A stretch of DNA of 64,000 nt from NCBI RefSeq assembly GCF_018595675.2, contig NZ_CP092333.1, positions 4,116,001-4,180,000 of the forward strand. Reading direction: 5' to 3'. The notes under the pieces were generated by a model. That model made no database searches, had not been told where the DNA came from, and saw nothing but the letters and a program-made list of their open reading frames with translations. Of this stretch, positions 2,881 through 24,464 are shown piece after piece (the first letter of the stretch is position 1; every line of letters begins with the position of its first letter). Position numbers and translations under genes: made by a program. Source of the DNA: Flavihumibacter fluvii. Its GTDB lineage: Bacteria > Bacteroidota > Bacteroidia > Chitinophagales > Chitinophagaceae.

Positions 2881-2893
2881 ATCAGTTGTATTT

Positions 2894-4429: not shown

Positions 4430-4500
4430 TGGCGGGAAACTGGGATAGTTGTTGAAAACATTTTAAATTTTAATGCATGCTTGCTTGCCAAATAGGAAAA

Positions 4501-6599: not shown

Positions 6600-9500
6600 A
6601 TGATAAAGCATCTGTTAACGGTTGGGTTCAGTTTAATAAGCATGCTGTCATTTTCAAAACAACAGTTGCCGTCAGCGGATTCAGAAGGATTCTGCACCAA
6701 CTCTGTTACACTCAATGGTGATAGCTGGAGGCTCGCTACTGATTCCGCAAATAAAGGCATTGCGCTGGGTTGGTATAATAACCCACCTGTCGGGGCTTCA
6801 AGGCCTACAAAAGTGCCCTGGGTAATACAGGATATCTTTCATGATTACCACGGCGTGGCCTGGTACTGGCGTGAATTTACTGCGCCGGCTAAACTAGCCA
6901 ACGGGGGCAGGTTACTGATCAAATTTCACACCGTTGATTATATGGCAGAAGTATGGGTAAACGGCAAAAAGGTCGGAGCCCATGAAGGTGGGGAATTCGC
7001 CTTTGAAGTTGACATAACTGATGCTGTAAAATACAGTGATAAAAACCTTCTTGTTGTCCGTGTGCTAAATCCTGATTATGAAGATATCGACGGTATCATC
7101 ATCAAAGAAACGCCTTCCAGTTTAAAACATCACCCCTATACCAGCAATGCTGTCTACAATTCAGGCGGCATTACGGGGGATGTGGAACTGCTTAGTGTGG
7201 CGGTTATCCGTGTGGCTGAATTATTTATTATGCCCGACTGGAAAACAGGAAAGATTAAGATCAGTGCTGAAGTATCCAATACACACATCAAATCAATCTC
7301 ATCTACCGTTCATTTCAAGGTTTCCGAAGCCAGGTCTGGAAGACCACTGGTCCTGAAAGAAATTCCCGGACAGTTTGCGCGGGGATCTAATCATGTAGAG
7401 GCGGAGCTAAAGGTTACGGATTTTAAATTGTGGAGCCCAGGCGAACCATTCCTGTACCGCATAACTGTCTCCATAGAGAGGGCTGGTTGCGTGGAAGAAC
7501 AATCAGTTCGTTTTGGTTTCCGTGACTTCCGCTTTGAGAATGGTTTTTACCAGCTGAATGGCAAAAGGATATTTTTAATCGGCTCTAATTCCAGCACCCA
7601 TTACCCTGTTGGTTATACAGTGCCGCTATATGAAGAGATGCTCCGTAGGGATGTTGTAAATATGAAGGCACTGGGACAGAATTTTGTAAGGATACCGTTC
7701 GGTTGCCCCAACCCCCGAATTTTTGATATTTATGATGAATTAGGCATACTGGTCCACCAGGAACATTATGGGTCATGGCAGATGAATGAATTTGGCGGGT
7801 ATATATACAACCGGCCGGAAAGATTGAAAGACTCTTTGCTCAAAAGGTTTGAAAACTCGCTTATGGGTGTTATCCGTCGCGACCGTAATCATCCGAGCAT
7901 TGTGATGTGGGGCGCACTGAATGAAAATCATGACGGTATCGTATTCCGCAAAGCAGTTGAAATTTTACCAAAGCTCAGGGCATTAGATCCAACACGACTT
8001 TTTGTACTGAACAGCGGCAGGTTTGACCTGATCAAAGAAATTGGGAGCATGAGTAGCCCGGGGTCTCAGACCTGGGATGTAGGCGAGAACAAACTGAAAG
8101 ACTGGCATCCTTATGTAATGATACCATACACGCGTAAAGCGCTGGATGAATTGTCGGGCAGGATCCCGCAGGGCATAGGGCAGAAAATCTATATCAGTGA
8201 AAGCGGTCTTTGTTTTCCCATTGATCTGCCTTCTGAACTTGGCGATTACCAACGCTGGGGTAAGTCCACTTCAGACGATGCATTGTATTTTAAAAGGCAG
8301 TACGATAAATTTATGACCGACTGGAAAAAATTTGGCCTGGGTGATAACTGGATAAGGCCGGAAGATTATATCCGTGACGCTTACCGCTCTGCAAACGGAC
8401 TGCGTGAAATCGGTGAAGCAGCGATACGCGCTAACCCTGCTGTTGTTGCTTATACTCCAACAAATGGTGTTGCTGATTATAGTATGGGAGAAAGCATAGC
8501 CACAAATTTCCGCAGGCTGAAACCTGATTTATTGCCATCTGTTTTGCTCGCCAATACGCCGCTGCGGTGGTGCCTGTCCACAGAACCCCAGAGTATTTAC
8601 AGTGGAGAAAAGGTACAGGTAAGGGCTTCCTTTTCCAATCTAGATGTGCTTCCGCCTGGCAGGTATCCCGCGACCGTACAGGTGGTAGGACCAGATAAAA
8701 AAATACTGTTGGAGAAGAAAATATTTGCAGAGATCCCAAAGGGGAACGAGTCACCGTTTGCTCAGTCAGTATTTATGGAAGATGTGGCCGTTAAAGGAAT
8801 ACCTGGTAAATATCAGTTTTTGGCAACACTAGACAGCGGAGGTACGGCCCTGGGCGGTAAGACCGAATTTTATGTTACCGACCGGGCGCCGCTTCCAGCG
8901 CTTCCCAAAGAAATAGTGCTGTGTGGCGAGGATTCTTTATTAAGTGCCTGGCTAAAATCCAAAGCAGTAAAAACAATTCCGTTTAATTCCACTGCTACAT
9001 CTAAAAGAAATTTATTCCTTATTTCCGGTAAGATGGCCCAGGATAGCCTTACTATGCTCAGCATTGCAAAAATGATGGCTCGTGGTAGTGCGGTGATTTT
9101 TCTTTCACCTGCCACCCTGAATAAAGGAGAAAAGTCCACCGGCTGGCTACCCCTAAGGAACAAAGGCATTATTGAATTGGTGGATCACGTGGCCGGTTAT
9201 TACCGGGCGGATCGCTGGACAAAAAAACATCCTGTGTTTGACGGATTGCCGCCTGCTGGTGGTATGATAGATTATGTCTATTTCCGAAACCTGATTTCGA
9301 TCAAAGCGCTTTGCCAGGAGTACAATACCAGGGCAAAGCCAGCCCACACTTTTGCTGAGTTAAGTGCGCCACTTGACTACCCGGATGAGACGATTGTTGG
9401 TGCCACAAGGATTAGTCATAATTACGCTTCAGGCATTCAGCTGGGTGCATGGAAATTTGGGCACGGACGATTTATTGTTAATACGCTGAACATAACGGAA

Positions 9501-9638
9501 AACCTGGGCCTCGATCCTGCAGCAGATCTTTTGTTTAGTAACATACTCCGGTTCGCCACCTTAGATATGCTAAAACCGGTTGAGCCATTACCACCAAATA
9601 TGACAGAAACATTAAAGGAAATAGGATACCAGCAATAA
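6600..9638 (+). CDS. Glycoside hydrolase family 2 protein (beta-galactosidase/glucuronidase-like)
   Basis: 1012 residues with a short Sec signal (MIKHLLTVGFSLISMLSFSK). It has the GH2 sugar-binding jelly roll (WYWREFTAPAKL, VDYMAEVWVNGKKVGAHEGG), an immunoglobulin-like middle (KLWSPGEPFLYRITV) and the TIM barrel. The expected acid/base Glu442 lies in WGALNENHDG and the nucleophile Glu534 in KIYISESG. A C-terminal extension of roughly 300 residues carries further beta-sandwich and a class-I-amidotransferase-like segment, longer than LacZ-type minimal enzymes. It starts 24 bases after the preceding hydrolase gene. GH2 activity is clear. Whether it removes beta-galactose, beta-glucuronate, beta-mannose or alpha-L-arabinopyranose cannot be told from sequence. 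Confidence 0.92.
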   Translation: MIKHLLTVGFSLISMLSFSKQQLPSADSEGFCTNSVTLNGDSWRLATDSANKGIALGWYNNPPVGASRPTKVPWVIQDIFHDYHGVAWYWREFTAPAKLANGGRLLIKFHTVDYMAEVWVNGKKVGAHEGGEFAFEVDITDAVKYSDKNLLVVRVLNPDYEDIDGIIIKETPSSLKHHPYTSNAVYNSGGITGDVELLSVAVIRVAELFIMPDWKTGKIKISAEVSNTHIKSISSTVHFKVSEARSGRPLVLKEIPGQFARGSNHVEAELKVTDFKLWSPGEPFLYRITVSIERAGCVEEQSVRFGFRDFRFENGFYQLNGKRIFLIGSNSSTHYPVGYTVPLYEEMLRRDVVNMKALGQNFVRIPFGCPNPRIFDIYDELGILVHQEHYGSWQMNEFGGYIYNRPERLKDSLLKRFENSLMGVIRRDRNHPSIVMWGALNENHDGIVFRKAVEILPKLRALDPTRLFVLNSGRFDLIKEIGSMSSPGSQTWDVGENKLKDWHPYVMIPYTRKALDELSGRIPQGIGQKIYISESGLCFPIDLPSELGDYQRWGKSTSDDALYFKRQYDKFMTDWKKFGLGDNWIRPEDYIRDAYRSANGLREIGEAAIRANPAVVAYTPTNGVADYSMGESIATNFRRLKPDLLPSVLLANTPLRWCLSTEPQSIYSGEKVQVRASFSNLDVLPPGRYPATVQVVGPDKKILLEKKIFAEIPKGNESPFAQSVFMEDVAVKGIPGKYQFLATLDSGGTALGGKTEFYVTDRAPLPALPKEIVLCGEDSLLSAWLKSKAVKTIPFNSTATSKRNLFLISGKMAQDSLTMLSIAKMMARGSAVIFLSPATLNKGEKSTGWLPLRNKGIIELVDHVAGYYRADRWTKKHPVFDGLPPAGGMIDYVYFRNLISIKALCQEYNTRAKPAHTFAELSAPLDYPDETIVGATRISHNYASGIQLGAWKFGHGRFIVNTLNITENLGLDPAADLLFSNILRFATLDMLKPVEPLPPNMTETLKEIGYQQ

Positions 9639-9672: not shown

Positions 9673-11100
9673 ATGAAAGAAAAGATGAGAGTTGTCACAA
9701 GAGGAAAATTATCGCCGGAACACATTATATATTTTGAAGAACTCCTTGGAAGTAAATATGTTCATACCGATAAGGAATCATTGCAAGCCTGTGCAAGTGA
9801 TAAGACAGAAGATCTTCATTTTCTTCCCGATGTTATTGTAAGGCCCAGGACAATTGAGGAAATCAGTTCGGTATTAAAATTCTGTAACCAGAATTTGATT
9901 CCTGTTACCCCAAGGGGCGGTGGCACCGGCCTCAGCGGAGGTGCGTTGCCGCATTTTGGCGGCGTAGTGCTTTCTACCGAGAGATTGAACGAGATTATTG
10001 AAATTGATGAAAAGAATCTGCAGATCGTGACTGAACCGGGCGTCATTACAGAAGTACTTCAGAGTAGGGTAAAAGAATTGGGCCTTTTTTATCCACCTGA
10101 TCCGCAAAGCAAGGGTTCATGTTTCATAGGTGGAAATATTGCGGAAAACAGCGGTGGTCCTAAAGCCGTTAAATACGGCGTGGTGAAGGATTATGTGCTG
10201 AACCTGCAGGTTGTATTACCTGATGGGGCCGTCATATGGACCGGCGCAAATGTATTGAAAAACGCCACCGGTTATAACCTCACCCAACTCATTGTGGGCA
10301 GCGAGGGCACACTTGGAATCGTTACGAAAATTGTTTTAAAATTGATTCCTTATCCCCGGTATGACCTGCTTATCCTTGCTCCTTTTGATTCAGCGGAACA
10401 GGCCTGTGCTTCCATCAGCGCCATATTTATGGCAGGGCATATTCCCAGTGCTATCGAATTTATGGACAGGGAGGCGGTTGCCTGGACAATGAAATTCATT
10501 GGTAGTTCAGATATAATGCTGGATGACAAGGCACAGGCCTATTTACTGATCGAAGTAGATGGCAACAATATGGATGTGTTAACAAAAGATATTGAGGAGA
10601 TTGCAACTATTGTAGCTGGATATCAAAGCGGAGATATCCTGTTTGCCGAGAGTTCTGTTCAGAAAGAAAAATTATGGAAGATCAGGAGATGTATCGGGGA
10701 AGCAATCAGGGCTCAAACGATTTATAAAGATGAAGATACGGTCGTGCCTCGCGCACAGCTCCCTTTATTATTAACAGGTGTCAAGTTGATCGCAGATAAA
10801 TTTGGTTTTAAAACCATCTGCTGCGGTCATGCGGGCGATGGAAATCTGCATGTCAGTGTAATAAAAGGTGATCTAACGTTGGAACAATGGAATGGACAGG
10901 TAAAGGAAGGTATCAGGGAAATTTTCAAGCTGGTAAAGAGCCTTAATGGTACGATCAGTGCTGAACATGGTATCGGTTTGATGCAGAAAGAATATATGGA
11001 TATTATGTTTGACGATACACAGATGAAGCTGATGCGGGACATTAAAAAAGTCTTTGATCCCAATAATATCCTGAATGCGGGAAAAATATTTGATCTCTGA
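9673..11100 (+). CDS. FAD-linked oxidase, GlcD/D-lactate dehydrogenase-like
   Basis: 475 residues from the ATG at 9673; an upstream TTG at 9643 is less likely. It has a PCMH-type FAD domain with PRGGGTGLSGG at residues 80-90 and GSCFIGGNIAENSGGPKAVKYG. The FAD-linked oxidase C-terminal domain carries GHAGDGNLHVSV at 385-396, GTISAEHGIGLMQKEYM and DPNNILNAGKIF. This family oxidises 2-hydroxy acids such as D-lactate or glycolate and passes electrons to quinone or a ferredoxin-like partner. No GlcE or GlcF partner is present, so it probably acts alone. Its position among glycan hydrolases suggests that an acid arising from the sugar (lactate, glycolate or an aldonate) is oxidised; that is inference. 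Confidence 0.88.
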   Translation: MKEKMRVVTRGKLSPEHIIYFEELLGSKYVHTDKESLQACASDKTEDLHFLPDVIVRPRTIEEISSVLKFCNQNLIPVTPRGGGTGLSGGALPHFGGVVLSTERLNEIIEIDEKNLQIVTEPGVITEVLQSRVKELGLFYPPDPQSKGSCFIGGNIAENSGGPKAVKYGVVKDYVLNLQVVLPDGAVIWTGANVLKNATGYNLTQLIVGSEGTLGIVTKIVLKLIPYPRYDLLILAPFDSAEQACASISAIFMAGHIPSAIEFMDREAVAWTMKFIGSSDIMLDDKAQAYLLIEVDGNNMDVLTKDIEEIATIVAGYQSGDILFAESSVQKEKLWKIRRCIGEAIRAQTIYKDEDTVVPRAQLPLLLTGVKLIADKFGFKTICCGHAGDGNLHVSVIKGDLTLEQWNGQVKEGIREIFKLVKSLNGTISAEHGIGLMQKEYMDIMFDDTQMKLMRDIKKVFDPNNILNAGKIFDL

Positions 11101-13047: not shown

Positions 13048-15114
13048 GTGCCAAAAATAAAGTTCAACCATATTTCCAGGATTTTAGGAATTGGAATACT
13101 ACTCATCTTGCTATCCATCGGAAGAGCCGTGGCGCAACAGGGAAAGGTGATGCCTTCTCTTCGTGTTGATGTCCGCCAATGGGTAAAACAGCAATTTGCC
13201 AAAGGCAGGATACCGCCTTTTTCTTTTGTATATGGAAACAGGAAGTCGGGAATTTTTATAAGGGATTGGCAGTTCAGGGAGGAAAAATTACTATCAACGG
13301 ATCCAACTACGGAAAAATATGCTTTCACATACAGTGACAAAAAGAGCGGCCTTGTCGTGAGATGCGATGTCAACTGTTTTGATGAATTCCAGGCAGTAGA
13401 ATGGACGCTTCATTTTTCCAATCGCTCAGCTACAGATACAACAGCTGTGATAAGCCAGTTGGCTGCTTCAGATTATACACTTACTTACAAGCAGAAAGGT
13501 GAAACCGTATTGTATCACTCACGGGGCAGTGATGGAAAGCGGTCAGATTTTGAACCATTGATGAGCTCTGTTAAAGCGGGATCAAGCATTTATATGACAC
13601 CACCAGGCGGTAGGTCTTCGGAGGGCAATGCTTTCCCATTTTTTAATATGGTTACACCCGACCAATCGGGGGTGATTGCCGCCATCGGATGGACCGGCAA
13701 ATGGTATGCCGATATCCGTCAAATAAATTCACAGGCCGTGCAATTGAAGGCGGGTATGGAGAATGTTTCGCTTTACCTTCTTCCTGGAGAAACGATCCGC
13801 AGCCCGAAAATCTGTTTGATGTTCTGGCAGGGACAGGACCGGATGGTCGGACATAATCAATTCAGGAAACTGGTGCTTAACCATTATACACGAAAAATAA
13901 ATGGAAAGGTGCCGCAGCTTCCCTTAGCATCCTTCCTCGACAGGGAAGGTCCGGTGCCCTGCAATGAACATGTATGCGCCACCGAAAGCCATTCCATTGC
14001 TGAAATCAAACGCCTTGAACAGTTCCATATCCTGCCGGAAGTTTTCTGGCTGGATGCGGGTTGGTATCCCTGCGGAGGATCATGGCCCAATGTCGGCAAC
14101 TGGACTCCTAATAAAGAGAATTTCCCCAATGGGCTGAAGCCGGTTTCGGATGCTGCGCAAGCTGTAGGCTCAAAATTCCTGTTATGGTTTGAGCCGGAAC
14201 GTGTAAGCAAAGACAAGCCTTATATCACGCTCGACAAGGAGCACCCGGACTGGCTCACAGCCGCTCCTGGTAAGCCATACCTGCTGCTTAACCTTGGCAA
14301 TATAAATGCCAGGGAGTGGATGACCGACCATATATCATCGATGATCGCCGCGCAGGGTATAGATTATTACCGACAGGATTTTAATATCGATCCTGGCCCA
14401 TACTGGAAACAAATGGACGCACCGGGCAGAACGGGTCTGGCAGAGATAAGGCATATCGAGGGTCTGTATGCTTTCTGGGACAGTTTGCTGGCAAGGTTCC
14501 CTGGCCTGGTCATTGACAACTGCGCTTCCGGAGGCAGGCGCTTAGACCTGGAAACGACTGCCCGAAGTTTTCCTTTCTGGAGAACAGATTACCAATACGG
14601 AGAACCTATAGGGTCTCAGTGCCATACCTACGGCTTGAATTTTTACCTGCCCCTGACCGGCACCGGTAGTTTTGAAATGTCCACCTATCATTTTCGTTCG
14701 GCTATGAGCAGTAATCTGGTGACCGACTGGAACGTTGAAAATAAGCAGTACAAACTCGCTGATATGCAAAAACTGGTTCAGGAGTTTAAAGACCTTCGGC
14801 CTTATTATTATTTCTCTGACTATTATCCATTAACGGATACAACAGGATTGCTCAATGACGATGTCTGGCTTGCCTATCAACTCAGCAGACCGGAATTGGG
14901 TGACGGCATGGTGATGGCCTTCCGCCGACCGCAATCTGGCGCAAAATCGATCGAGGTCCGACTGAAAGGATTGAACCCGGAGTCGACATATTTACTGACA
15001 AACCAGGATACGGGTGAAAAAACTACACGCAGCGGGAAGGATTTATCGCAAGGAATCACACTGAGCCTGGAAACAGCTCCGGCTTCGTTGTGCTGGGTAT
15101 ACAAAAAACAATAA
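13048..15114 (+). CDS. GH36-type alpha-galactosidase, secreted
   Basis: 688 residues, starting at GTG 13048, which gives a good signal peptide ending AVAQQ. A beta-sandwich N-terminal domain is followed by a TIM barrel with VFWLDAGWYPCGGSW and FLLWFEPERV. The predicted nucleophile Asp444 lies in YYRQDFNIDP, followed by VIDNCASGGRRLDLE, and the acid/base Asp514 lies in WRTDYQYG. These match clan GH-D retaining alpha-galactosidases. A C-terminal beta domain closes the protein (TYLLTNQDTGEK). The stop codon overlaps the next start codon (TAATG), so the two are probably translationally coupled. The substrate is inferred to be alpha-galactosyl side chains; alpha-N-acetylgalactosamine specificity cannot be excluded. 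Confidence 0.92.
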   Translation: MPKIKFNHISRILGIGILLILLSIGRAVAQQGKVMPSLRVDVRQWVKQQFAKGRIPPFSFVYGNRKSGIFIRDWQFREEKLLSTDPTTEKYAFTYSDKKSGLVVRCDVNCFDEFQAVEWTLHFSNRSATDTTAVISQLAASDYTLTYKQKGETVLYHSRGSDGKRSDFEPLMSSVKAGSSIYMTPPGGRSSEGNAFPFFNMVTPDQSGVIAAIGWTGKWYADIRQINSQAVQLKAGMENVSLYLLPGETIRSPKICLMFWQGQDRMVGHNQFRKLVLNHYTRKINGKVPQLPLASFLDREGPVPCNEHVCATESHSIAEIKRLEQFHILPEVFWLDAGWYPCGGSWPNVGNWTPNKENFPNGLKPVSDAAQAVGSKFLLWFEPERVSKDKPYITLDKEHPDWLTAAPGKPYLLLNLGNINAREWMTDHISSMIAAQGIDYYRQDFNIDPGPYWKQMDAPGRTGLAEIRHIEGLYAFWDSLLARFPGLVIDNCASGGRRLDLETTARSFPFWRTDYQYGEPIGSQCHTYGLNFYLPLTGTGSFEMSTYHFRSAMSSNLVTDWNVENKQYKLADMQKLVQEFKDLRPYYYFSDYYPLTDTTGLLNDDVWLAYQLSRPELGDGMVMAFRRPQSGAKSIEVRLKGLNPESTYLLTNQDTGEKTTRSGKDLSQGITLSLETAPASLCWVYKKQ

Positions 15115-16046
15115 TGAATACTAGAGTATCAACATATAAAAATAAAAAAAGCATTGTCCTCGAAAATGACAGGATCAGGACGGAGTTTATTCCAGATCCT
15201 GGTGGGAAAATGGTGTCATTTATTGATAAGGTTAACGGTTATGAATTCCTGGTGCAACGACCGGGGGAAATCTATCGCGATCAAGCCTTTGATGGAAACT
15301 ATACGGATGGGGAATGCAGTGGTTATGATGATATGTTTCCGACCATTGATGCCTGCTCATATGAATTGGAGCCCTGGAAAGGAATAGCCATGGCCGATCA
15401 TGGAGAGGTATGGTCCTTACCCTGGGTACCTGCTATTACAGAAGACGGCCTGGACCTTTTGGTTAAGGGTATACGCTTTCCTTATACCCTGAAAAAAAGG
15501 ATAAAATTTACTGGCGAAAACAGCTTGCGGATAATTTATCGCCTGGAGAATAACAGTGCATATGATTTTGAATTCCTGTGGGCCGGTCATTTTATGATCA
15601 ATATGGAAGAAGGGATGCAAGTAAAGGTGCCGGAAGATTGTAAAAAAGCTATTTCTATTCTGACAAATACCGGCAGGCCCTACGGGGAGGTAATGGACTG
15701 GCCACATTTTAAGGATGGAAGTGGAGAGCTTTACCGCGCTGATATCAGCAGGCCACCATCCAGCATAGGATTTGAAAAGTATTATTTTCAACAACCGCTA
15801 AAAGCTGGCTGGTGTAAATTGGAGTATCCCAAAGATGGAAAAAACCTGACCATTTCGTTTTCTGCGGAAACGGTCCCTTACCTGGGCATCCTGATGAACG
15901 AAAACGGATGGGATAATCTCTATAATATTTTCATTGAACCGTGTACGGTCTGTTATGACCGGCCGGATGCTGCGAGGCGTCATGGGCAGGTAAGTAAGGT
16001 GAGTGCAGCTGGCAGCTATGAATGGTATATTGATTTAACACTATAA
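15114..16046 (+). CDS. Aldose-1-epimerase-like (galactose mutarotase fold) protein
   Basis: About 310 residues from the ATG at 15114, whose first base is the last base of the GH36 stop codon. No signal peptide, so probably cytoplasmic. The sequence has the beta-supersandwich pattern of mutarotase-like proteins: IVLENDRIRTEFIPDPGGKMVSF, then FLWAGHFMINMEEGMQVKVP, and IEPCTVCYDRPDAARRHG near the C-terminus. The classical GalM residues are not all obvious, so it may be a mutarotase or one of the broad sugar-binding relatives found in Bacteroidota sugar loci. It would present the right anomer to the dehydrogenases encoded downstream (inference). Confidence 0.72.
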   Translation: MNTRVSTYKNKKSIVLENDRIRTEFIPDPGGKMVSFIDKVNGYEFLVQRPGEIYRDQAFDGNYTDGECSGYDDMFPTIDACSYELEPWKGIAMADHGEVWSLPWVPAITEDGLDLLVKGIRFPYTLKKRIKFTGENSLRIIYRLENNSAYDFEFLWAGHFMINMEEGMQVKVPEDCKKAISILTNTGRPYGEVMDWPHFKDGSGELYRADISRPPSSIGFEKYYFQQPLKAGWCKLEYPKDGKNLTISFSAETVPYLGILMNENGWDNLYNIFIEPCTVCYDRPDAARRHGQVSKVSAAGSYEWYIDLTL

Positions 16047-16058
16047 AAAAGTAATCAT

Positions 16059-16880
16059 ATGTCTGGAAAAATGACTGGAAAAAAAGTATTGGTAACTGGA
16101 TCTGGAACAGGTCTGGGAAGAGAAGCAGCACTCGAGTTCGCAAGGGAAGGTGCCATAGTAGTGTTGCACTATGCCCATAGTGAAGATGGTGCAATGTCGG
16201 CGGTTAATGAAATAAAAGCAGCGGGCGGAAAGGCAACCGCCATCAAAGCAGATTTACAGCAAACGGATGAAGCCATACGGCTTGCCACAGAAGCCATAGC
16301 ATTCCTGGGTGGTATAGATGTGCTTGTGAATAATGCAGGTATTACCATGACCCTTGAGTTTGAAAAGGTGACACCGGAACAGTATGATACAGTATATAAC
16401 GTTAACGTAAGAGCGCAGTTTTTTATCCTGCAGACTGTTTTACCGACAATGGTAGCTGCAGGTAAAGGCGTTGTGATCAACCTATCTTCTGTGCATGGCA
16501 TCAGGGCCTCCAAAGGCCATTCTGTATATGCCGGAACGAAGGGTGCCATCATTGCTTATACCCGGGAGCTGGCAGTAGAACTGGCACCCAAGGGCATAAG
16601 GGTAAATGCAGTTGCTCCGGGTGCCGTTCCGGTAGACAACCAGTATAAGGCAGCAGGTACTGATGATATGAGCGGACTGGGAAAACTCATCCCCTGTGGC
16701 TTTGGCGGTACCCCATTGGACATTGCGAAGACACTCATCTTCATGGCATCTGATGATTCCCGTTATATTGTCGGGCAGACGATTGTAGTAGATGGTGGTA
16801 CAACTTCATGGATGTCATTCAGCGAAGGGTTTGATGAGATCGGACTAAGGCTGGGTAAGGGATATGTTGCGGGACTGTAA
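16059..16880 (+). CDS. SDR-family NAD(P)-dependent oxidoreductase (FabG-like)
   Basis: 273 residues. Rossmann motif VLVTGSGTGLGREAA at the N-terminus, NNAG in the middle (DVLVNNAGITM), and the catalytic Ser143/Ser144, Tyr157 and Lys161 (SSVHGIRASKGHSVYAGTK), all canonical. The C-terminus IVVDGGTTSW is typical of classical SDRs. FabG-like sequences in sugar loci usually oxidise a sugar, aldonate or keto-acid hydroxyl rather than taking part in lipid synthesis. It is 12 bases after the epimerase-like gene. With the MBL-fold hydrolase next to it, a dehydrogenase plus lactonase sequence is plausible. Substrate unknown. Confidence 0.88.
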   Translation: MSGKMTGKKVLVTGSGTGLGREAALEFAREGAIVVLHYAHSEDGAMSAVNEIKAAGGKATAIKADLQQTDEAIRLATEAIAFLGGIDVLVNNAGITMTLEFEKVTPEQYDTVYNVNVRAQFFILQTVLPTMVAAGKGVVINLSSVHGIRASKGHSVYAGTKGAIIAYTRELAVELAPKGIRVNAVAPGAVPVDNQYKAAGTDDMSGLGKLIPCGFGGTPLDIAKTLIFMASDDSRYIVGQTIVVDGGTTSWMSFSEGFDEIGLRLGKGYVAGL

Positions 16881-16906
16881 ACCTAACCGTAAAAAGAGCA
16901 AACTAT

Positions 16907-17692
16907 ATGGGACTGCAAAAAAGAATCAACGAAACAACGGTTAATCCTGGGCAAATAGCGTTGTTTTATATTGCGCAGGCAGGGTTTTGTATCAAAACAG
17001 CCTCAGGTAAGAACATATTTATCGATCTGTACTTATCAGACGCCTGCGAGCGGTTGTTCGGATTCAAACGAATGATTCCGTCCCCAATGAGTGCGCAGGA
17101 AGTGGAGGCAGGCCTTTACCTTATTACGCATCATCATGCCGATCATTTCGACCCGGATGCGATGCCGATTATTGTCAAACATCCAACCACTTTTTTTGCA
17201 GTGGCGCCTGATTGCGTTTCCCTGTTAGAAGAAATCGCGGTTAGCCCTTCACGTTATAAAGTATTACGGGAAGGTGAGACATGGCAATGGGAAGACGTCA
17301 GGATCAAAGCCATTTATGCCGATCATGGCGAGCTTGCGCCGGACGCCCAGGGCTATTTAATCGAAGTGGACGGGCTGAAAATTTACCATGTTGGCGATAG
17401 CGCGTACCGGCCGGAGGAAATTAAAGCTTCCCTGGGAACAGATGTTGATATCATGATTGTACCCATTAATGGGACCTATGGAAACATGATCGCTTCAGAG
17501 GCTTGTAAGTTGGCAGCTGAAATAAAACCCCGGTTGGTTATTCCCTGTCATTTCTGGATGTTCCTTGAACATGTCGTGCCGGATGGAAAGGGTGACCCTG
17601 CGACCTTTCTGACAGAAGGTTCAAAATTGCCATCGGCAATAAAAACAAAAGTTATGGCGCCTGGGGAGTGTATCATTTACCCCGGAACGTAA
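16907..17692 (+). CDS. MBL-fold metal-dependent hydrolase (UlaG-like)
   Basis: 261 residues, no signal peptide. The metal-binding motif H75-x-H77-x-D79-H80 is in LITHHHADHFD. Further ligands are likely in IYHVGDSAY (Asp), and in the late His of VIPCHFWMF. Size and arrangement resemble the UlaG/YhfI branch of the metallo-beta-lactamase superfamily, which contains sugar-phosphate lactonases and other carboxylic or cyclic ester hydrolases. Located between an SDR and the 2-oxoacid dehydrogenase fusion, a lactonase or ring-opening diketone hydrolase is the natural guess, but the sequence gives no substrate. Confidence 0.85.
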   Translation: MGLQKRINETTVNPGQIALFYIAQAGFCIKTASGKNIFIDLYLSDACERLFGFKRMIPSPMSAQEVEAGLYLITHHHADHFDPDAMPIIVKHPTTFFAVAPDCVSLLEEIAVSPSRYKVLREGETWQWEDVRIKAIYADHGELAPDAQGYLIEVDGLKIYHVGDSAYRPEEIKASLGTDVDIMIVPINGTYGNMIASEACKLAAEIKPRLVIPCHFWMFLEHVVPDGKGDPATFLTEGSKLPSAIKTKVMAPGECIIYPGT

Positions 17693-17721
17693 TTAAACAT
17701 CAATGCAATTAAAAAAAAGAT

Positions 17722-20103
17722 ATGAATAGTTTACCAGATTTAAAAAAGGATACAGTGAATGCGACTGGGCTATTGCACTTATATGAGCAGATGTTGCTTA
17801 TCAGAAAATTCGAATTGGCCGTCCAGGAAAATTATAAAAAAGGAGAAGTCCCTGGCTTCATCCATTTGTGTGTAGGGCAGGAGGCAGTTGCCGTTGGCGT
17901 ATGCACCAACCTCCGTTCAACAGACTGGGTAACCAGTACGCACAGGGGGCACGGTCATGGCCTTGCTAAAGGAGTTGATGTGAAACAAATGTTGGCAGAA
18001 TTGTATGGAAAAGCCACAGGCACTAACGGTGGACGTGGCGGCTCCATGCATATTTACAGTACTTCAGCAGGTCTGTTTGGTACCAATGGCCTGGTCGGTG
18101 GAGGAATTCCGCTTGCGGTAGGCCTTGGAATGAGTGCACAGGTACAACAAACGGATGGTGTTGCGGTTTCCTTTTTTGGCGACGGCGCCATCTGTCATGG
18201 CTCCTTTCACGAATCGATGAGCCTTGCAGCAGTCAAGAGAACGCCGGTTGTTTTTGTCTGTGAAAATAACCTCTATGCTACCTGTACTCCAGTAGGGGAA
18301 GCCAACCTGAACGCGGATATATCGAGCAAGGCGGCGGCTTATGGCATACCCGGGGTAAAGGTCGATGGAAATGATGTTTTGGCGGTGCAGCGCGTTACGG
18401 CTGCGGCGATCGATCGCGCCCGAAGGGGCGAGGGTCCAACGCTTATTGAAGCAGTCACTTACCGGACAGTGGGTCATCATGAAGGAGATGTGTTGGTAGG
18501 GACCTATAGGACCAGGGAAGAACTCGACGAATGGATAACAAGATGCCCCATAAAAACCTTTAGGGAATACCTGCTGTCCTCGGGTAAGTCGGAGGAAACC
18601 GAATTATCAGTAATAGACCAGAAGATTGACCAGGTCATTAGTGAGGCGCTTGCTTTTGCGCGATCATCACCATATCCTGATACATCGAGCGTATCGGAAA
18701 ACTGCTGGATGAATCCAGTGAATCCCGCTGTGGCACTTGCAAAGCAGGATGAAAATGGTGGATCAGAAAACCTAAGCTGGCTTGCTGCTGTCCGGGACGG
18801 AATAGCGGAAGAAATGCGTCGGGATAAGAATATCCTCTATATGGGTGAAGGTATCGGCGAGCGTGGAGGAACTTTTGGTCAGACCAAGAACCTCTGGGGT
18901 GAATTCGGAACCCGGTTAATAGATACTCCGATTTGTGAACTTGGATTTACAGGTGCTGCAGCCGCAGCCTCTTCAGCAGGCTGCCGTACAATTGCAGACC
19001 TAATGTTCGCAGATTTTATTTTTGATGCGACTACACAGATCATCAACCAGGCGAGTAAATTACGATACATGAGTAATGGACAGATTAGTGTACCGATGAT
19101 CATAAGGGCCGGGTCGGGGCAGATTAAGCAGGCTGGTCCGCAGCACAGTGGAACTTTTCACTCCCTTTGGGCAAATGTACCAGGACTGATAGTTGTCGTG
19201 CCTTCAACCCCTGCAGACGCCAAGGGTTTGATGAAAACAGCTTTACGTGCAGGCGATCCCGTTGTTTTCCTGGAATCCAAATCCCTTATGTCATCAAAAG
19301 GAGCTGTACCCATTACTGAAACCTATATTCCATTTGGTAAGGCAAGGTTAGTTGAAGAAGGCAGTGATATTACTGTTGTCAGTTTTGGGCAACCTGTCCA
19401 CTCCTGCATTGAGGCCGCCAAACAATTAAACCAGCAAGGCATCTCCTGTGAAATCATAGACCTGCGGACCATTGTTCCTTTTGATGCGGAAATGATTATC
19501 AAGAGTGTCAACAAGACCGGGCATCTGTTAGTTGTAGATGAGGCCTATACGCCCTGTTCAGTCAGTGCTGAAATAGCGGCGATTGTGGTGGAAAATTGCT
19601 TTTATACTTTAAAAGCGCCAGTAGGCAGGCTTAATAAACTATCCGTACCCCAGCCTTTCAGCCCTCCGCTGGAAGCGGCTGTTAGCATTACCCCTGAAAA
19701 GATAATTGACCTTGTTAAATCAATGCTTAACGGTGTGTCATTCAGGACACAGTATCTTCCTGTAAGTGGAATAACCGAAGACAGTTCAGTTGTTCCAAAT
19801 ATTTCTGGTACTTCCGAAGTAAATGATGTTCCTGAAGAAACCATTATTGCTACACCTTCTGATAAAAACAGTATAGAGATCAGCATTCCGAATCTTGGAC
19901 TTACTATTACAGAGGTTTCAATTGCGCAATGGCATAAAAAAGTAGGAGATCCCATTAAAAAAGGGGAGACTATCCTGGATTTTGAAAGTGAAAAATCAGT
20001 CGTGGAACTTGAATCCCCTGTAGATGGTTATTTAGATAGTATTGTTATAACAGAAGGTATTACTGTGCCAATTGGGACAGTGGTAGGTTTTATTAAGCAG
20101 TAA
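17722..20103 (+). CDS. Fused TPP-dependent 2-oxoacid/acetoin dehydrogenase E1alpha-E1beta with C-terminal lipoyl domain
   Basis: 793 residues in one chain. E1alpha occupies about residues 1-325 (RKFELAVQENYKKGEVPGF, HRGHGHGLAKG, TPP-binding FFGDGAICHGSFHESM with FVCENN). E1beta occupies about 350-670 (LSWLAAVRDGIAEEM, MGEGIGERGGTFGQT, HSGTFHSLWANVPGL, EIIDLRTIVPFD). After a linker rich in Ser/Thr/Pro comes a lipoyl domain at about 713-793 with the acceptor Lys758 in DFESEKSVVELESP. The family oxidatively decarboxylates 2-oxoacids or cleaves alpha-diketones/acetoin, transferring the acyl group to lipoate. No E2 catalytic core or E3 gene lies in the locus, so the acyl acceptor is unknown. The fusion with its own lipoyl arm is unusual. 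Confidence 0.93.
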   Translation: MNSLPDLKKDTVNATGLLHLYEQMLLIRKFELAVQENYKKGEVPGFIHLCVGQEAVAVGVCTNLRSTDWVTSTHRGHGHGLAKGVDVKQMLAELYGKATGTNGGRGGSMHIYSTSAGLFGTNGLVGGGIPLAVGLGMSAQVQQTDGVAVSFFGDGAICHGSFHESMSLAAVKRTPVVFVCENNLYATCTPVGEANLNADISSKAAAYGIPGVKVDGNDVLAVQRVTAAAIDRARRGEGPTLIEAVTYRTVGHHEGDVLVGTYRTREELDEWITRCPIKTFREYLLSSGKSEETELSVIDQKIDQVISEALAFARSSPYPDTSSVSENCWMNPVNPAVALAKQDENGGSENLSWLAAVRDGIAEEMRRDKNILYMGEGIGERGGTFGQTKNLWGEFGTRLIDTPICELGFTGAAAAASSAGCRTIADLMFADFIFDATTQIINQASKLRYMSNGQISVPMIIRAGSGQIKQAGPQHSGTFHSLWANVPGLIVVVPSTPADAKGLMKTALRAGDPVVFLESKSLMSSKGAVPITETYIPFGKARLVEEGSDITVVSFGQPVHSCIEAAKQLNQQGISCEIIDLRTIVPFDAEMIIKSVNKTGHLLVVDEAYTPCSVSAEIAAIVVENCFYTLKAPVGRLNKLSVPQPFSPPLEAAVSITPEKIIDLVKSMLNGVSFRTQYLPVSGITEDSSVVPNISGTSEVNDVPEETIIATPSDKNSIEISIPNLGLTITEVSIAQWHKKVGDPIKKGETILDFESEKSVVELESPVDGYLDSIVITEGITVPIGTVVGFIKQ

Positions 20104-20121
20104 AAAAATATATTGTATCCC

Positions 20122-20946
20122 ATGAAAAATAGCAATCTAAATCAACAAGCAACAGCTAGCTATGATTTTACAGGCAAGGTGGTGTTGGTCACAGGTTCTG
20201 CAAGTGGGATCGGTAAATCCACGGCGGCTAAATTTCACGGATTTGGGGCCCAGGTGGTGATCACCGATATCAATAAGGAAGAGGGCAGTAAAACGGCGGC
20301 GGCTTTGGGCGAAAGAGCAGTCTTCCTACCCTGCGATATCCGTAACCCAAAACAAGTCGGAGACCTTATCGATAAAACTGTGGAACTGTTCGGGCGACTG
20401 GATATTATGGTCAATAATGCAGGCATTAATACTACAGCGAAAGCAGACAGGGTCACCATTGATCAGTATCCCAGTGATACCTGGCAAAAAATGATCGATG
20501 TCGATCTCAATGGAACTTTTTATTGCTGCAAGGCCGCTGCAAAGGTTATGATCGGACAAAACGGTGGCGTAATCGTAAACATTGCTTCTGTTGCGGGCGT
20601 TGTAGCCCTCCGGCTGCAATCAGGCTTTGTGGCAGCCAAGGCGGCAGTATTGAAAATGACAGAAGCCATGGCATGTGAACTTGCGCCTTATGGTATAAGG
20701 GTTAATGCCGTTTCCCCTGGTTCCATTTTAACGGACACAACAAGGAATCTCTTTTATAGCGAAACGGGTAGTTTCAGTGCAATGGCAGAGCGCCTTGTTT
20801 CCTTTATTCCACAGGGACGACCGGGGGTGGCGGAAGAAATTGCAGATGCCATTGTTTTCCTCTCCAGTGGATCGGCTTCCTATATCAATGGGCACAACCT
20901 TGTGGTAGATGGCGGCTGGACCTGCGGATTCAACAGGGATTTCTGA
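20122..20946 (+). CDS. SDR-family oxidoreductase with Tyr-to-Phe change in the active site
   Basis: 274 residues from the ATG at 20122. Cofactor motif VVLVTGSASGIGKST and the conserved MVNNAGIN are intact, as are Ser156 in NIASVAG and Lys173. At the catalytic Tyr position the protein has Phe169 (SGFVAAKAAV where family members read YxASK). The codon is ttt, one base from tat. The C-terminal part is otherwise normal (RVNAVSPGSILTDT, NLVVDGGWT). By family knowledge a Tyr-to-Phe change abolishes or strongly lowers dehydrogenase activity. The gene may encode a substrate-specialised or non-catalytic member. It follows the E1 fusion by 18 bases. Confidence 0.88.
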   Translation: MKNSNLNQQATASYDFTGKVVLVTGSASGIGKSTAAKFHGFGAQVVITDINKEEGSKTAAALGERAVFLPCDIRNPKQVGDLIDKTVELFGRLDIMVNNAGINTTAKADRVTIDQYPSDTWQKMIDVDLNGTFYCCKAAAKVMIGQNGGVIVNIASVAGVVALRLQSGFVAAKAAVLKMTEAMACELAPYGIRVNAVSPGSILTDTTRNLFYSETGSFSAMAERLVSFIPQGRPGVAEEIADAIVFLSSGSASYINGHNLVVDGGWTCGFNRDF

Positions 20947-20986
20947 AAAGGAAAAACTTATTTACAGAGTAGTTAAAAAATACAAT

Positions 20987-22030
20987 ATGGAAATATTAAT
21001 TGGACTGCTGCTGGTTGTACTGGCAGGATTAGGCACGGGCACAGCTGCATGGCCGATGAAAAAAATAAAGGAGCTTAATTTCGAACAATACCTGTTTGTT
21101 TTTATGTTCACCGGTATCATTCTTTATCCCTGGCTGGTCGTACTGATCAATATTCCAGACCCTATAGAAATTGTCCGTAAAGTTGGATTAAGGACATTGG
21201 TTATTTCAAATCTCTTATCGGTCTGCTGGGGCATTGCCAATGTTCTCTACCTCGTATGTGTTGTGCGGATTGGTGCAGCCCTTACCGGTGCTATCCTTTC
21301 TGCCGCCGGTATGTCGGTGGGTGTAATCATACCCATGATATTTAAAGGAAGCGGCATGTTCAATAATGCACCAGGCCTTTTTTCCCCCGCTGGCATAGTT
21401 ATAATGGCTGGCCTGGTTGTAATAATCATTGGCATTGCCCTGGTGAGCCTTGCCGGTTTTGGTAGGGAAAAAGTGTTGCAGGAACAGGGTGGACAACTAA
21501 AGAGCAGCCAGCCCTCGGGAGGATTCTTACAGGGGCTCTTGTTGGTAATACTCGCAGGATTTCTTTCAAGTGGTTTATCTCTTGCCTTTGTATACGGGCA
21601 GGGCCCGGTGATAGAGGCCGCGAAGAGCCAGGGAGCAGGAGATATAACAGCCAATTTTACTGTTTGGGCCTTCTGTATTTTGGGCGGTGGTTTGCTAAAT
21701 GTATTTTATGCTATATTCCTAATGGCCAAAAATAACAGCTGGAAACGGCTGTTTGAACGAAAAGACGAACTTGTTTACGGTGCCATTATTGGGCTCCAGT
21801 TTATCGGGGCTATAATCCTTTTGGGTAGTGGCATGTTATTGCTCGGCGTACTAGGTGCATCCGTTGGTTTTGCTATACAACAATCATTACAGGTAATAGG
21901 TAACCAACTAGTTGGCTTTACCGGAGGAGAGTGGAAAGGCATATATGGTAAACCCAGGAAGAATATGTATCTCGCAATTGGGATCATCCTTGTGGCAGTG
22001 ATCCTGCTTGCTTTTAGTAATGCGATTTAG
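20987..22030 (+). CDS. RhaT-like sugar/proton symporter of the DMT superfamily
   Basis: 347 residues from the ATG at 20987; the frame extends upstream into the SDR gene but MEILIGLLLVVLAGLGTGTAAWPMK is the natural start. Ten predicted membrane helices; the GTAAWPMKKIKELNFEQY start and the WGIANVLYLVCVVRIGAALTGAIL segment resemble the L-rhamnose transporter RhaT. It would bring a monosaccharide, perhaps a deoxyhexose or pentose freed by the hydrolases, across the inner membrane. Specificity is not certain, because RhaT relatives in Bacteroidota occur in many sugar loci. It is the last enzyme/transport gene of the locus, 53 bases before the regulator. Confidence 0.83.
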   Translation: MEILIGLLLVVLAGLGTGTAAWPMKKIKELNFEQYLFVFMFTGIILYPWLVVLINIPDPIEIVRKVGLRTLVISNLLSVCWGIANVLYLVCVVRIGAALTGAILSAAGMSVGVIIPMIFKGSGMFNNAPGLFSPAGIVIMAGLVVIIIGIALVSLAGFGREKVLQEQGGQLKSSQPSGGFLQGLLLVILAGFLSSGLSLAFVYGQGPVIEAAKSQGAGDITANFTVWAFCILGGGLLNVFYAIFLMAKNNSWKRLFERKDELVYGAIIGLQFIGAIILLGSGMLLLGVLGASVGFAIQQSLQVIGNQLVGFTGGEWKGIYGKPRKNMYLAIGIILVAVILLAFSNAI

Positions 22031-22083: not shown

Positions 22084-22956
22084 ATGCAACCCAAATTAAT
22101 TAAGGTAAATGTACCCGAAAAATCATCCTTCAGCCTCAACAGGTCGATATTCTATGATGGGTTCCCGGGCATCTGGCATTTTCATGATGAATATGAACTA
22201 ACCCTGATACTCGAAAGCAGCGGCACAAGGATGGTAGGTGATCATATTGACAGGTTTGCTGATGGTGACCTGGTATTAATTGGAAAAAACCTGCCACATA
22301 CCTGGCGTAATGACGAAGCTAAAGAATTCAAGAAATCCGAATGCCTGGTCTTGCACTTCATTTATGATTTCCTGGGGGCAGAGTTTTTTAATGTCCCTGT
22401 GATGAAAAAAATCCATGCCCTGCTCGAACGATCACACCGGGGTGTCCGGATCACCGGTAAGACCCGGGATGTAATCGCTACTATGCTCGTGGAGATGGAA
22501 CAAAACGGGCCGGTGGACCAGATACTATTACTATTGTCTATTCTCAACCTGCTTACCCTGTCCGATGAACTGCATGACCTTTCCAGCGAAGGTTTTGCTA
22601 ACTCGATAGATGAGTCTGGTTCAAACCGCCTGAATAATGTCTATGCGTACATTATGAATCATTTCCAGGAGGACATCAGCTTATTGAAAGTCGCAGAAGT
22701 CGCAAACATGAGTCCAACTGCCTTCAGCAGGTATTTTAAAAGCAGGACACGCAAATCCTTTACCCAGTTTATCATTGAATTAAAAATCGGTTATGCTTGT
22801 AAACTGTTGATGAAAGATGATATGTCAGTGACCCAGGTATGTTATGAAAGCGGCTTTCAGAACTTGTCCAATTTTAACCAGCAATTCAAAGGCATCACCA
22901 AGCTTACACCAAAGAAGTACCAGCTCTTGCATGCCAATGGAGGGCCTAAAGTATAA
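22084..22956 (+). CDS. AraC-family transcriptional regulator with N-terminal cupin sensor
   Basis: 290 residues from the ATG at 22084. The N-terminal half is a cupin (FPGIWHFHDEYELTLILESSGTRMVGDH and GDLVLIGKNLPHTWRN). The C-terminal 100 residues hold two helix-turn-helix motifs (LLKVAEVANMSPTAFSRYFKSRT and VTQVCYESGFQNLSNFNQQFK followed by TPKKYQ). The cupin pocket of RhaR/AraC-like proteins binds a sugar or sugar acid in the cytoplasm. Its position at the end of the utilisation locus on the same strand makes it the likely local regulator; no hybrid two-component sensor or anti-sigma pair is seen. Confidence 0.9.
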   Translation: MQPKLIKVNVPEKSSFSLNRSIFYDGFPGIWHFHDEYELTLILESSGTRMVGDHIDRFADGDLVLIGKNLPHTWRNDEAKEFKKSECLVLHFIYDFLGAEFFNVPVMKKIHALLERSHRGVRITGKTRDVIATMLVEMEQNGPVDQILLLLSILNLLTLSDELHDLSSEGFANSIDESGSNRLNNVYAYIMNHFQEDISLLKVAEVANMSPTAFSRYFKSRTRKSFTQFIIELKIGYACKLLMKDDMSVTQVCYESGFQNLSNFNQQFKGITKLTPKKYQLLHANGGPKV

Positions 22957-23382
22957 GATGGAACGTATCACCAGCCACCGGGTACCTGGAGTGATGATAG
23001 TTCCATGTTGCTTTGCACCCTCGAAAACCTTCTTGATAATGGCAACAATGCAGCCCTCCATCGTTTGGCAGCAGGCACATCCTGGTTGCAGTCTGGCATA
23101 ACCGAAGAACGGATCGCATGCGGAAATGGTTCCCTGATGCGGGTACTGCCTTATGCATTCTTTGAATCGTATGCACATTTGTCTGCGGTTGCTGCGCTGG
23201 CTGGCGGATTAGCAGGCCTGGCCTATGGACCGGATGCCGAATGGGTGGGTCAGTTGGCTAACCTGGATTTGATCAATAAGTTGTTGGGGAATAATGGCCA
23301 ATTCGACCAATTATTCTCTTTGTTCTTCGTAGCCAATGTTTTGCCTGAAAGAAAGCATTTGAATTGGACACTACAGAAATAA
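22957..23382 (+). pseudogene. Deletion remnant of an ADP-ribosylglycohydrolase (DraG/ARH-like) gene
   Basis: Directly after the AraC stop, in the same frame, comes an open stretch of 142 codons without a suitable start. It encodes QPPGTWSDDSSMLLCTLENLLDNG, the metal-binding segment typical of ADP-ribosylglycohydrolases, then GNGSLMRVLPYAFF, another family hallmark. At YAHLSAV the sequence jumps to AALAGGLAGLAYG, the family's C-terminal motif. Missing are the N-terminal roughly 40 residues, about 100 or more residues between AHLSAV and AGGLAGL, and the late Asp pair that completes the metal site. It therefore cannot be a working hydrolase. It probably records a deletion event between the AraC gene and the toxin-antitoxin-like pair. 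Confidence 0.82.
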
Positions 23383-23394
23383 TAATTAAATTTG
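23364..23394 (+). promoter_or_regulatory. Bacteroidota-type promoter for the XRE-ImmA/PIN pair
   Basis: TTG at 23364-23366, a 20-base spacer and TAAATTTG at 23387-23394 fit the Bacteroidota consensus (TTG at -33, TAnnTTTG at -7). The box ends only six bases before the ATG at 23401, so transcription would start at or next to the start codon, giving a nearly leaderless mRNA. The promoter lies inside the ADP-ribosylglycohydrolase remnant. Confidence 0.6.
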
Positions 23395-23400
23395 TCCAGT

Positions 23401-24456
23401 ATGCAATACTTTCCCGATAGGTTAAAGAGTGCCCGCAAAATGAATGGATTGTCTTTGCAGGAATTATCAGAGAAGCTGAACAACACTATTTCCAAGCAAG
23501 ACCTAAACCGTTTAGAATCCGGCATCATGCAGCCCGATAGCAAACTACTATCGGCGCTAACCAATGCTTTACAGGTAACCAATGATTACTTTTTTAAAAA
23601 GCAAACCATCACCCTGGAACTGGTTGAATTCCGGAAGCTGGCCAGTTTGCCAAAAAAAGAACAGGAAATAGTAAAAGGTAAAACTGCTGAATTCCTGGAA
23701 AGATATATTGAACTGGAGAACCTTTTAGGTATTAATAGTTCTGCGCCCTTTAAATACCAGGAATTTAAAATAAAGGATCAGGAAGACATTGAAAAGGCTG
23801 CATCTAAATTAAGGGAGTATTTAAAGATCGGCACCGATCCGATTTATAATATCAATGAATTGCTCGAGGAAAATGGAATTAAGATTTTTCCCATAAAATC
23901 CCAATACGCATTTTCAGGTATGTCAGCACAAATCAATAAAAACTTAATGTTGATTGTGTATAATGACGATCCGGCTATTCCTGTTGTACGCAAACGCTTT
24001 ACCATATTGCACGAGTTAGCACACTTGTTTTTGAATCTTTCTGGTTTTGATGAAAAAAGTGCAGAAAGGTTTTGTGACAGCTTTGCCGGCGCATTGCTAT
24101 TGCCATCCGCAAAAATTGTAGCGTATTTTGGCGGTAAAAGAGATACCGTATTTGTTAGTGAATTGAAGAACATTAAGGAATATTATGGTATTTCCTTATC
24201 TGCAATCATGTATAGAGCCAAAACCTTACACCTTGTATCAGATCATTATCATAAATATTTTATGATAAAATACAACCGGCAATACAAAGCATCTGAGGGG
24301 ACCGGCTATAATGGGAAAGAACAATCCCAGCGGTTCATACAATTATTAATGCGGGCCGTAGCACAAGACATTATTTCAACTACTAAAGCGTCCTCATTAA
24401 ACAATCAAAAATTAGGTGATTTCCGTAAAGAGTATCTTGACCTGGTTTCAGCTTAA
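23401..24456 (+). CDS. XRE helix-turn-helix protein with ImmA/IrrE metallopeptidase domain
   Basis: 351 residues from the ATG at 23401. Residues about 4-65 are an XRE DNA-binding domain (LKSARKMNGLSLQELSEKL and LNRLESGIMQPDSKLLSALTNAL). The middle and C-terminal part is the COG2856 ImmA/IrrE metalloprotease with zinc motif H204-E205-x-x-H208 (ILHELAHLFLNL) and CDSFAGALLLPS. Such two-domain proteins repress mobile elements or act as the regulatory partner in toxin-antitoxin pairs, with proteolysis relieving repression. The PIN-domain gene starts 8 bases downstream, so the two form one unit. Confidence 0.92.
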   Translation: MQYFPDRLKSARKMNGLSLQELSEKLNNTISKQDLNRLESGIMQPDSKLLSALTNALQVTNDYFFKKQTITLELVEFRKLASLPKKEQEIVKGKTAEFLERYIELENLLGINSSAPFKYQEFKIKDQEDIEKAASKLREYLKIGTDPIYNINELLEENGIKIFPIKSQYAFSGMSAQINKNLMLIVYNDDPAIPVVRKRFTILHELAHLFLNLSGFDEKSAERFCDSFAGALLLPSAKIVAYFGGKRDTVFVSELKNIKEYYGISLSAIMYRAKTLHLVSDHYHKYFMIKYNRQYKASEGTGYNGKEQSQRFIQLLMRAVAQDIISTTKASSLNNQKLGDFRKEYLDLVSA

Positions 24457-24464
24457 TAGACCCA

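Follow-up and report, generated by a model that had tools for sequence, protein, structure and literature searches.

A five-gene block at the end of a polysaccharide locus

A 64,000-nucleotide stretch of the Flavihumibacter fluvii genome (contig NZ_CP092333.1, positions 4,116,001 to 4,180,000; hereafter the window) carries, at the end of a SusC/SusD polysaccharide utilization locus (PUL), a block of five genes centered on a single-chain E1 protein that combines the E1α, E1β and lipoyl parts of a 2-oxoacid dehydrogenase. We tentatively read this block as a PUL-linked oxidative, non-phosphorylating pathway that would lead from a sugar through its lactone, the sugar acid and a 2-oxo acid to an acyl-CoA, and we give this reading slightly less than an even chance. 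We place the enzyme in the E1 family and class the whole as a variant of oxidative sugar catabolism, distinct from pyruvate dehydrogenase (PDH), from the Route III pathway and from UlaG.

The genome consists of a single contig of 5.0 Mb. The five genes are open reading frames, all on the + strand, that follow each other head to tail with spacers of 26, 29, 18 and 34 bases. The first encodes a short-chain dehydrogenase/reductase (SDR1; 16059..16880, 273 amino acids (aa)), which scores over the gathering scores of PF00106/PF13561, shows the canonical YxxxK motif and is a proposed sugar 1-dehydrogenase. It is followed by a metallo-β-lactamase (MBL)-fold hydrolase (16907..17692, 261 aa; PF13483/PF12706 over the gathering score), a proposed sugar lactonase, and by the E1α-E1β-lipoyl chain (17722..20103, 793 aa, no internal stops). 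The second dehydrogenase, SDR2 (20122..20946, 274 aa; PF00106/PF13561), is the partner of the fused E1 and has an alternative TTG start at 20113. A RhaT-like carrier proposed for sugar uptake completes the block (20981..22030, 349 aa); it matches PF06379 with 48.7 bits against a cut-off of 27, its best NCBIfam model reaches 179.1 against 369, and an alternative in-frame start at 20909 would make it overlap with SDR2. The first-pass annotation of the window had described this head-to-tail set, and the open reading frames, the Pfam matches and the same gene order in a second genome bear it out.

The fused E1 forms a clade of its own

The E1 chain comprises, in order, the domains E1_dh (PF00676), Transket_pyr (PF02779), Transketolase_C (PF02780) and Biotin_lipoyl (PF00364), all over cut-off. 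The thiamine diphosphate (ThDP) motif GDG...NN lies at residues 153-183, and the lipoyl Lys, residue 758, is kept in all 24 fused rows that reach this position. E1α, E1β and lipoyl domains, ThDP motif and lipoyl Lys are shared with PDH, branched-chain 2-oxoacid dehydrogenase (BCKDH) and acetoin dehydrogenase. Unlike these enzymes, the fused E1 joins its alpha part, beta part and lipoyl domain in a single polypeptide, stands in its own clade and has sugar-acid neighbors. The NCBIfam cut-offs for the PDH E1 equivalogs were not reached (PRK11892, 361.1 against 454; TIGR03182, 347.7 against 393.85).

Scanning one genome per species with this single E1 query yielded at least 80 loci (L020-L099), on which the phylum spread and the partner counts given below rest. 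Among the listed loci, 28 (L020-L044, L073, L077 and L093) encode an E1 at 50-72% identity and the other 52 one at 34-46%. A called gene with alpha, beta and lipoyl parts is present in 22 of the 28; in L033 the DNA match covers residues 10-791, and in L038, L039, L043, L073 and L077 the contig ends ahead of the lipoyl part. None of the 52 other listed loci has all three parts in one gene.

We then placed these proteins in a tree of 80 rows, obtained by a short search, with L033 and L077 left out and one paralogue from the F. fluvii genome added. A single branch with an SH-aLRT of 100 splits off the 27 fused rows, including that of the window. The fused clade spans Bacteroidota, Planctomycetota, Verrucomicrobiota, Acidobacteriota and Alphaproteobacteria, and its nearest rows are the separate-gene sets L045, L046 and L070; L045, the closest separate-gene relative, holds two MR_MLE genes, a 2-hydroxyacid dehydrogenase and an FAA hydrolase. 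Plasmid records gave 837 E1 matches, all below 60% identity, and the best among those listed (about 40-43%) are separate-gene 2-oxoacid dehydrogenase sets, for example on Thermus and Phaeobacter plasmids. The F. fluvii genome encodes eight further Transket_pyr proteins. At about 2.267 Mb (L104) it also holds a set of separate E1α, E1β and E2 genes beside an 81-aa carrier-like open reading frame and another of 581 aa, and the neighbors at L072, L087, L089 and L090 are similar to those at L104. By titles and abstract beginnings, we found no paper in open-licence PubMed Central that deals with a lipoyl-tailed E1, or with a matching module, in sugar catabolism, and the term "E1 component" was not found in the text of PMC9007349 as far as it was available.

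E2 partners of the fused E1

The fused loci differ from 2-oxoacid dehydrogenase complexes, where the lipoyl domain is usually part of E2, in that the E2 gene is separate or not at the locus. In some members from Planctomycetota a separate E2 adjoins E1, and an E2-type catalytic domain lies close behind E1 in L023, L027 and L031. The motif DHRVMDG is present in the E2 of L023 and L027, that of L031 being cut, and short stretches ahead of the three domains match the part of the E2-like protein of L029 that we take to be E3-binding-like. Since the catalytic and E3-binding-like parts of E2 stand separately beside a lipoyl-tailed E1, the sequences indicate that in the fused clade E1 bears the lipoyl arm and E2 keeps the remaining parts. 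The four E2 genes of the F. fluvii genome are 27-34% identical to the E2 of L023.

The first-pass annotation had suggested for E1 the decarboxylation or cleavage of an α-oxo or diketo intermediate. In view of the lipoyl tail and of the separate E2 beside E1 in these three loci, we amend this to a probable oxidative acyl-transferring complex. In line with the earlier reading, relatives of the fused E1 in other phyla have sugar or sugar-acid surroundings.

Recurrence of the block and its parts

In its exact form the block is rare. The MBL probe matched one of 248 genomes of the order at E≤1e-40 (F. fluvii itself), five of 294 of the family at E≤1e-30 (F. fluvii, G919 at 69% identity and three at 33-35%) and six of 395 of the phylum at E≤1e-15 (F. 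fluvii and five at 28-35%). The three family relatives at 33-35% stand in other gene contexts. With the E1 probe, the class gave one match in 247 genomes at E≤1e-120, again F. fluvii. Outside the window, the exact order was found in one other Chitinophagaceae genome, the metagenome-assembled genome G919 (locus L020), where genes for a 699-aa protein, a glycoside hydrolase (GH) of family 2, a GH127, an epimerase-like protein, SDR1, MBL, E1, SDR2, RhaT and AraC follow each other at 58-80% identity. The five block genes are 69-80% identical between the two genomes (SDR1 80%, MBL 69%, RhaT 76%), and the recurrence of the order from SDR1 to AraC indicates that the arrangement exceeds chance.

Two Pirellulales contigs hold many parts of the block in reshuffled order. 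L023 has seven genes inside 13 kb, including the E2 catalytic domain (identities: E1 54%, SDR2 47%, GH127 about 41%, MBL 39%, GH2 38%). L027 carries E1 (54%), E2, a GH36 (38%) and RhaT in two pieces (43-44%), and it also encodes Ldh_2, a 2-hydroxyacid dehydrogenase and two PfkB proteins nearby. On both contigs a relative of SDR1 (56% in L023, 57% in L027) stands beside the E2 gene. The full set in L020 and the parts in L023 and L027 agree with the earlier claim that the genes belong together.

Partners of E1 were counted by tblastn, with matches of at least 60 bits, in the 28 fused and the 52 other listed loci. An SDR2-type gene (at least 41% identity) lies in 17/28 fused against 0/52 other loci (Fisher p 2e-10), a lactonase, SMP-30 in seven and MBL in two loci and never both, in 9/28 against 0/52 (p 3e-5), a 2-hydroxyacid dehydrogenase (three probes pooled) in 13/28 against 3/52 (p 3e-5), and an MR_MLE gene, of aldonate-dehydratase type, in 7/28 against 3/52 (p 0.03); these p-values are only a guide, because the probes derive from fused loci, related loci were counted singly and locus lengths are unequal. 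No SDR2-type gene was found in 11 of the 28 fused loci, several of them short contigs. The neighborhood survey, which had been proposed as a test that could refute the idea, thus gave a divided answer: the exact block is rare, whereas the pairing of E1 with SDR2 recurs. Among other neighbors, the locus L029 of Mesorhizobium norvegicum holds a sugar-type ABC importer, L037 and L041 hold TRAP importers, which carry mostly acids, and in L028 an acetyl-CoA hydrolase/transferase gene adjoins SDR2.

SDR2 and the MBL-fold hydrolase

The SDR2 of the window has a Phe at the position of the catalytic Tyr of the YxxxK motif. Of 20 SDR2-type copies compared, ten have this Phe (those of the window, L020 and L023 and seven alphaproteobacterial ones) and ten, one of them a fragment, have the Tyr, which the three closest PDB chains also retain. 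A motif LFY[GS] further on is shared by all ten Phe-type copies and by three Tyr-type copies from Verrucomicrobiota. A tree of SDR2 that leaves out the fragment requires two changes of the Phe label; a single origin of the Phe state is possible. SDR2 resembles L-2-keto-3-deoxyfuconate 4-dehydrogenase and other sugar-acid SDRs in its fold family and its sugar-acid context, but differs from them in this residue, and the part of PMC11199699 available to us calls the Ser-Tyr-Lys triad of SDRs completely conserved. That SDR2 copies from three phyla carry Phe instead of the catalytic Tyr poses a question of enzymology in its own right.

The chain ends differ as well. In a comparison that took in L024 and the L033 fragment, the seven Phe-type copies from Alphaproteobacteria terminate in MM, MF or SM and the others in R[DE][FW], an end that the SDR2 of the window, L020 and L023 keeps in its own chain. 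In five of the seven alphaproteobacterial loci (L025, L030, L034, L040 and L093) a short SDR with neither glycine motif nor YxxxK bears an R[ND]F end; the other two loci (L035 and L044) hold a Tyr-type SDR2 ending in RDF. Because the end missing from the Phe-type SDR2 is present on a neighboring SDR, the sequences suggest mixed SDR oligomers at these loci.

In the MBL-fold protein, the motif HxHxDH and further His/Asp residues, presumably metal ligands, are invariant across the relatives in the window, L020 and L023. Its structure, predicted from three sequences (mean pLDDT 83, pTM 0.86), finds its best fold match in 2wyl/2wym (TM-score on query 0.80-0.83, 21% identity), and the molecule name of 2wyl is L-ascorbate-6-phosphate lactonase UlaG. 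Unlike UlaG, the protein remains far below the cut-off of the UlaG family model (62.3 bits against 306), and a phosphorylated substrate is not expected. On the simplest reading, MBL would be a lactonase in place of SMP-30. It had been proposed to open a ring or a diketone; since the closest solved fold is that of UlaG, the sugar lactone becomes the more likely substrate and the diketone the less likely one. In three Chitinophagaceae loci (L124, L125 and L126) an MBL relative at 33-35% identity adjoins an MR_MLE gene, in what appears to be another sugar-acid route. L125 also holds GH39, Amidohydro_2, zinc alcohol dehydrogenase, RraA-like and sodium-symporter genes, the Pfam coverage of the three loci comprising L125 and one protein of L124. 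The His at position 140 is not retained in these relatives, and the loci leave the role of MBL undecided because an Amidohydro_2 gene of the L125 type could be the lactonase there.

Proposed pathway and alternative explanations

In the proposed pathway, the glycosidases would release a monosaccharide that the RhaT-like carrier would import. Judging from families, fold and context, SDR1 would oxidize C1 to give the lactone, and the UlaG-like MBL would hydrolyze the lactone to the sugar acid. The weakest step follows, the conversion of the sugar acid into a 2-oxo acid, for which either SDR2 or an unlinked dehydratase or a 2-hydroxyacid oxidase would be responsible. The fused E1 would then decarboxylate this acid with ThDP, releasing CO2 and placing the acyl group onto its own lipoyl tail, from where E2 would hand it to CoA; L023 and L027 encode an E2 nearby, and F. 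fluvii would have to draw on one of its four E2 genes located elsewhere.

This scheme shares with Routes I-III a sugar dehydrogenase, a lactonase and a second dehydrogenase, together with the absence of an isomerase, kinase or aldolase from the locus. In those routes, as described in the available part of PMC6336799, the 2-keto-3-deoxy acid is cleaved, dehydrated or dehydrogenated, and Route III ends in a hydrolase. Unlike them, the locus has no dehydratase, and carbon would be released by E1 in place of an aldolase or FAA hydrolase. Among the 12 Pfam-scanned proteins between 4477 and 22956 we found no member of the isomerase, kinase, aldolase, dehydratase, E2 or E3 families. The earlier statement that the isomerase-kinase-aldolase set is not at the locus therefore holds, but the suggestion of a complete non-phosphorylating route does not, for lack of dehydratase, E2 and E3 and of the catalytic Tyr of SDR2. 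The FAD-linked oxidase upstream, which had been counted as part of this route, is not conserved either: the GlcD-like gene (9676..11100, +; PF01565/PF02913) has no counterpart in L020, and we rejected it as a core step and list it as accessory.

The block may go further and represent an undescribed form of sugar breakdown, in which the one-chain lipoyl-bearing E1 would act as a "sugar-acid dehydrogenase complex" of its own with a Tyr-less partner SDR, giving acyl-CoA directly from the sugar chain with no kinase, isomerase or aldolase, in several phyla; we consider this conceivable and rather doubtful. The Tyr-less SDR2 would then perhaps rely on the Tyr of the LFY motif, on a subunit partner or on a non-redox step. 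If E1 uses a sugar-derived oxo acid, the known non-phosphorylative sugar routes would gain a new carbon-releasing step, and a 2-oxoacid dehydrogenase complex would have been rebuilt with its swinging arm on E1.

Several observations weigh against the proposed pathway. The Phe of SDR2 is one of them, and the origin of the partner probes is another. E2 (PF00198) has no match in the window and four elsewhere in the genome. The E2-like proteins of L025, L029, L034, L036 and L040 have an E3-binding-like part and no DHRxxDG, which makes the transfer of acyl groups to CoA questionable at these loci, and the related locus L027 has its two PfkB kinase genes close by. Moreover, the dehydratase families MR_MLE, ILVD_EDD and GD_AH have no match inside the window: all those of the genome lie outside it (MR_MLE_C, seven over and one under cut-off; ILVD_EDD_N, two; GD_AH_second, two), which led us to reject a dehydratase hidden in the locus. 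By BLAST, nothing in L128 and L129 resembled the dehydratases of related loci. One therefore has to assume a dehydratase encoded elsewhere, an oxidation at C2 or an acyloin cleavage. Some alphaproteobacterial fused-E1 loci do hold a dehydratase that would supply 2-oxo acids.

Acyloin cleavage would need no dehydratase, which fits the window, L020 and L023. Here the SDRs would form an α-hydroxyketone in the sugar acid, and E1 would split it into an aldehyde and an acyl-lipoyl group with no loss of CO2, as acetoin dehydrogenase does. The meso-2,3-butanediol dehydrogenase model gives SDR2 220.7 bits, but this is below the cut-off of 270 and other SDR models score higher; the GlcD-like oxidase of the window could use glycolate, but is not in L020. 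The MR_MLE genes of seven fused loci suggest 2-oxo acids as E1 substrates and the rows of the E1 tree include no named acetoin dehydrogenase, and overall we consider acyloin cleavage unlikely. A variant of Route III for rhamnose, fucose or pentoses appears more improbable still. SDR2 would in that case be a 2-keto-3-deoxyaldonate 4-dehydrogenase, with E1 in place of the FAA-type hydrolase on a 2,4-diketo acid, in line with the SDR and hydrolase of the published Route III (PMC6336799, in the part available) and with the FAA-hydrolase genes that accompany the fused E1 in L031, L043 and L077 and also occur in L045. However, the window has no dehydratase match, the Ser-Tyr-Lys triad of SDR2 is broken, and these sugars may be served elsewhere in the genome, which holds an AraA-family gene and a cluster of SMP-30-like, ILVD-type and SDR genes.

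It is also very improbable that there is no single pathway and that a housekeeping-type E1 and generic SDRs came to lie behind the PUL by chance. Every part is from a common family, the exact block is rare and the E2 genes are located elsewhere, but the same partners recur across phyla, the E1 clade is distinct, and the genome has its eight further Transket_pyr proteins.

As to the substrate of the proposed pathway, L-arabinose seemed obvious from the GH127 gene. We do not favor it, because F. fluvii has an L-arabinose isomerase family gene (AraA_N) elsewhere in its genome, about 77 kb upstream. The SMP-30-like, ILVD-type dehydratase and SDR genes mentioned above stand in a row at about 3.43 Mb (L130) and may form a separate oxidative sugar route.

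Flanking genes

Upstream of the block and on the same strand, an epimerase-like protein (15114..16046; 69% identity in L020) matches only DUF5107, with 23.0 bits below the cut-off of 24.4. It is preceded by a GH36-like glycosidase (Melibiase, PF02065; 13048..15114, +), with no counterpart in L020 and 38% identity in L027, by the GH127 glycosidase (PF07944; 11118..13013, +; 58% in L020, about 41% in L023) and, beyond the GlcD-like gene, by the GH2 glycosidase (6600..9638, +; 66% in L020, 38% in L023). The 699-aa protein at 4477-6576 has no Pfam match, and its predicted structure was too poor for use (mean pLDDT 40). The end of SusC and SusD, named by eye, occupy positions 1-4429.

Downstream, the block is followed by an AraC-type regulator assigned by Pfam (22084..22956, +; 68% identity in L020). 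Past this gene, a 125-aa open reading frame at 23005-23382 looks by eye like a piece of a larger enzyme gene, and an adjoining pair at 23392-24959 like a helix-turn-helix/peptidase regulator and a PIN-like toxin.

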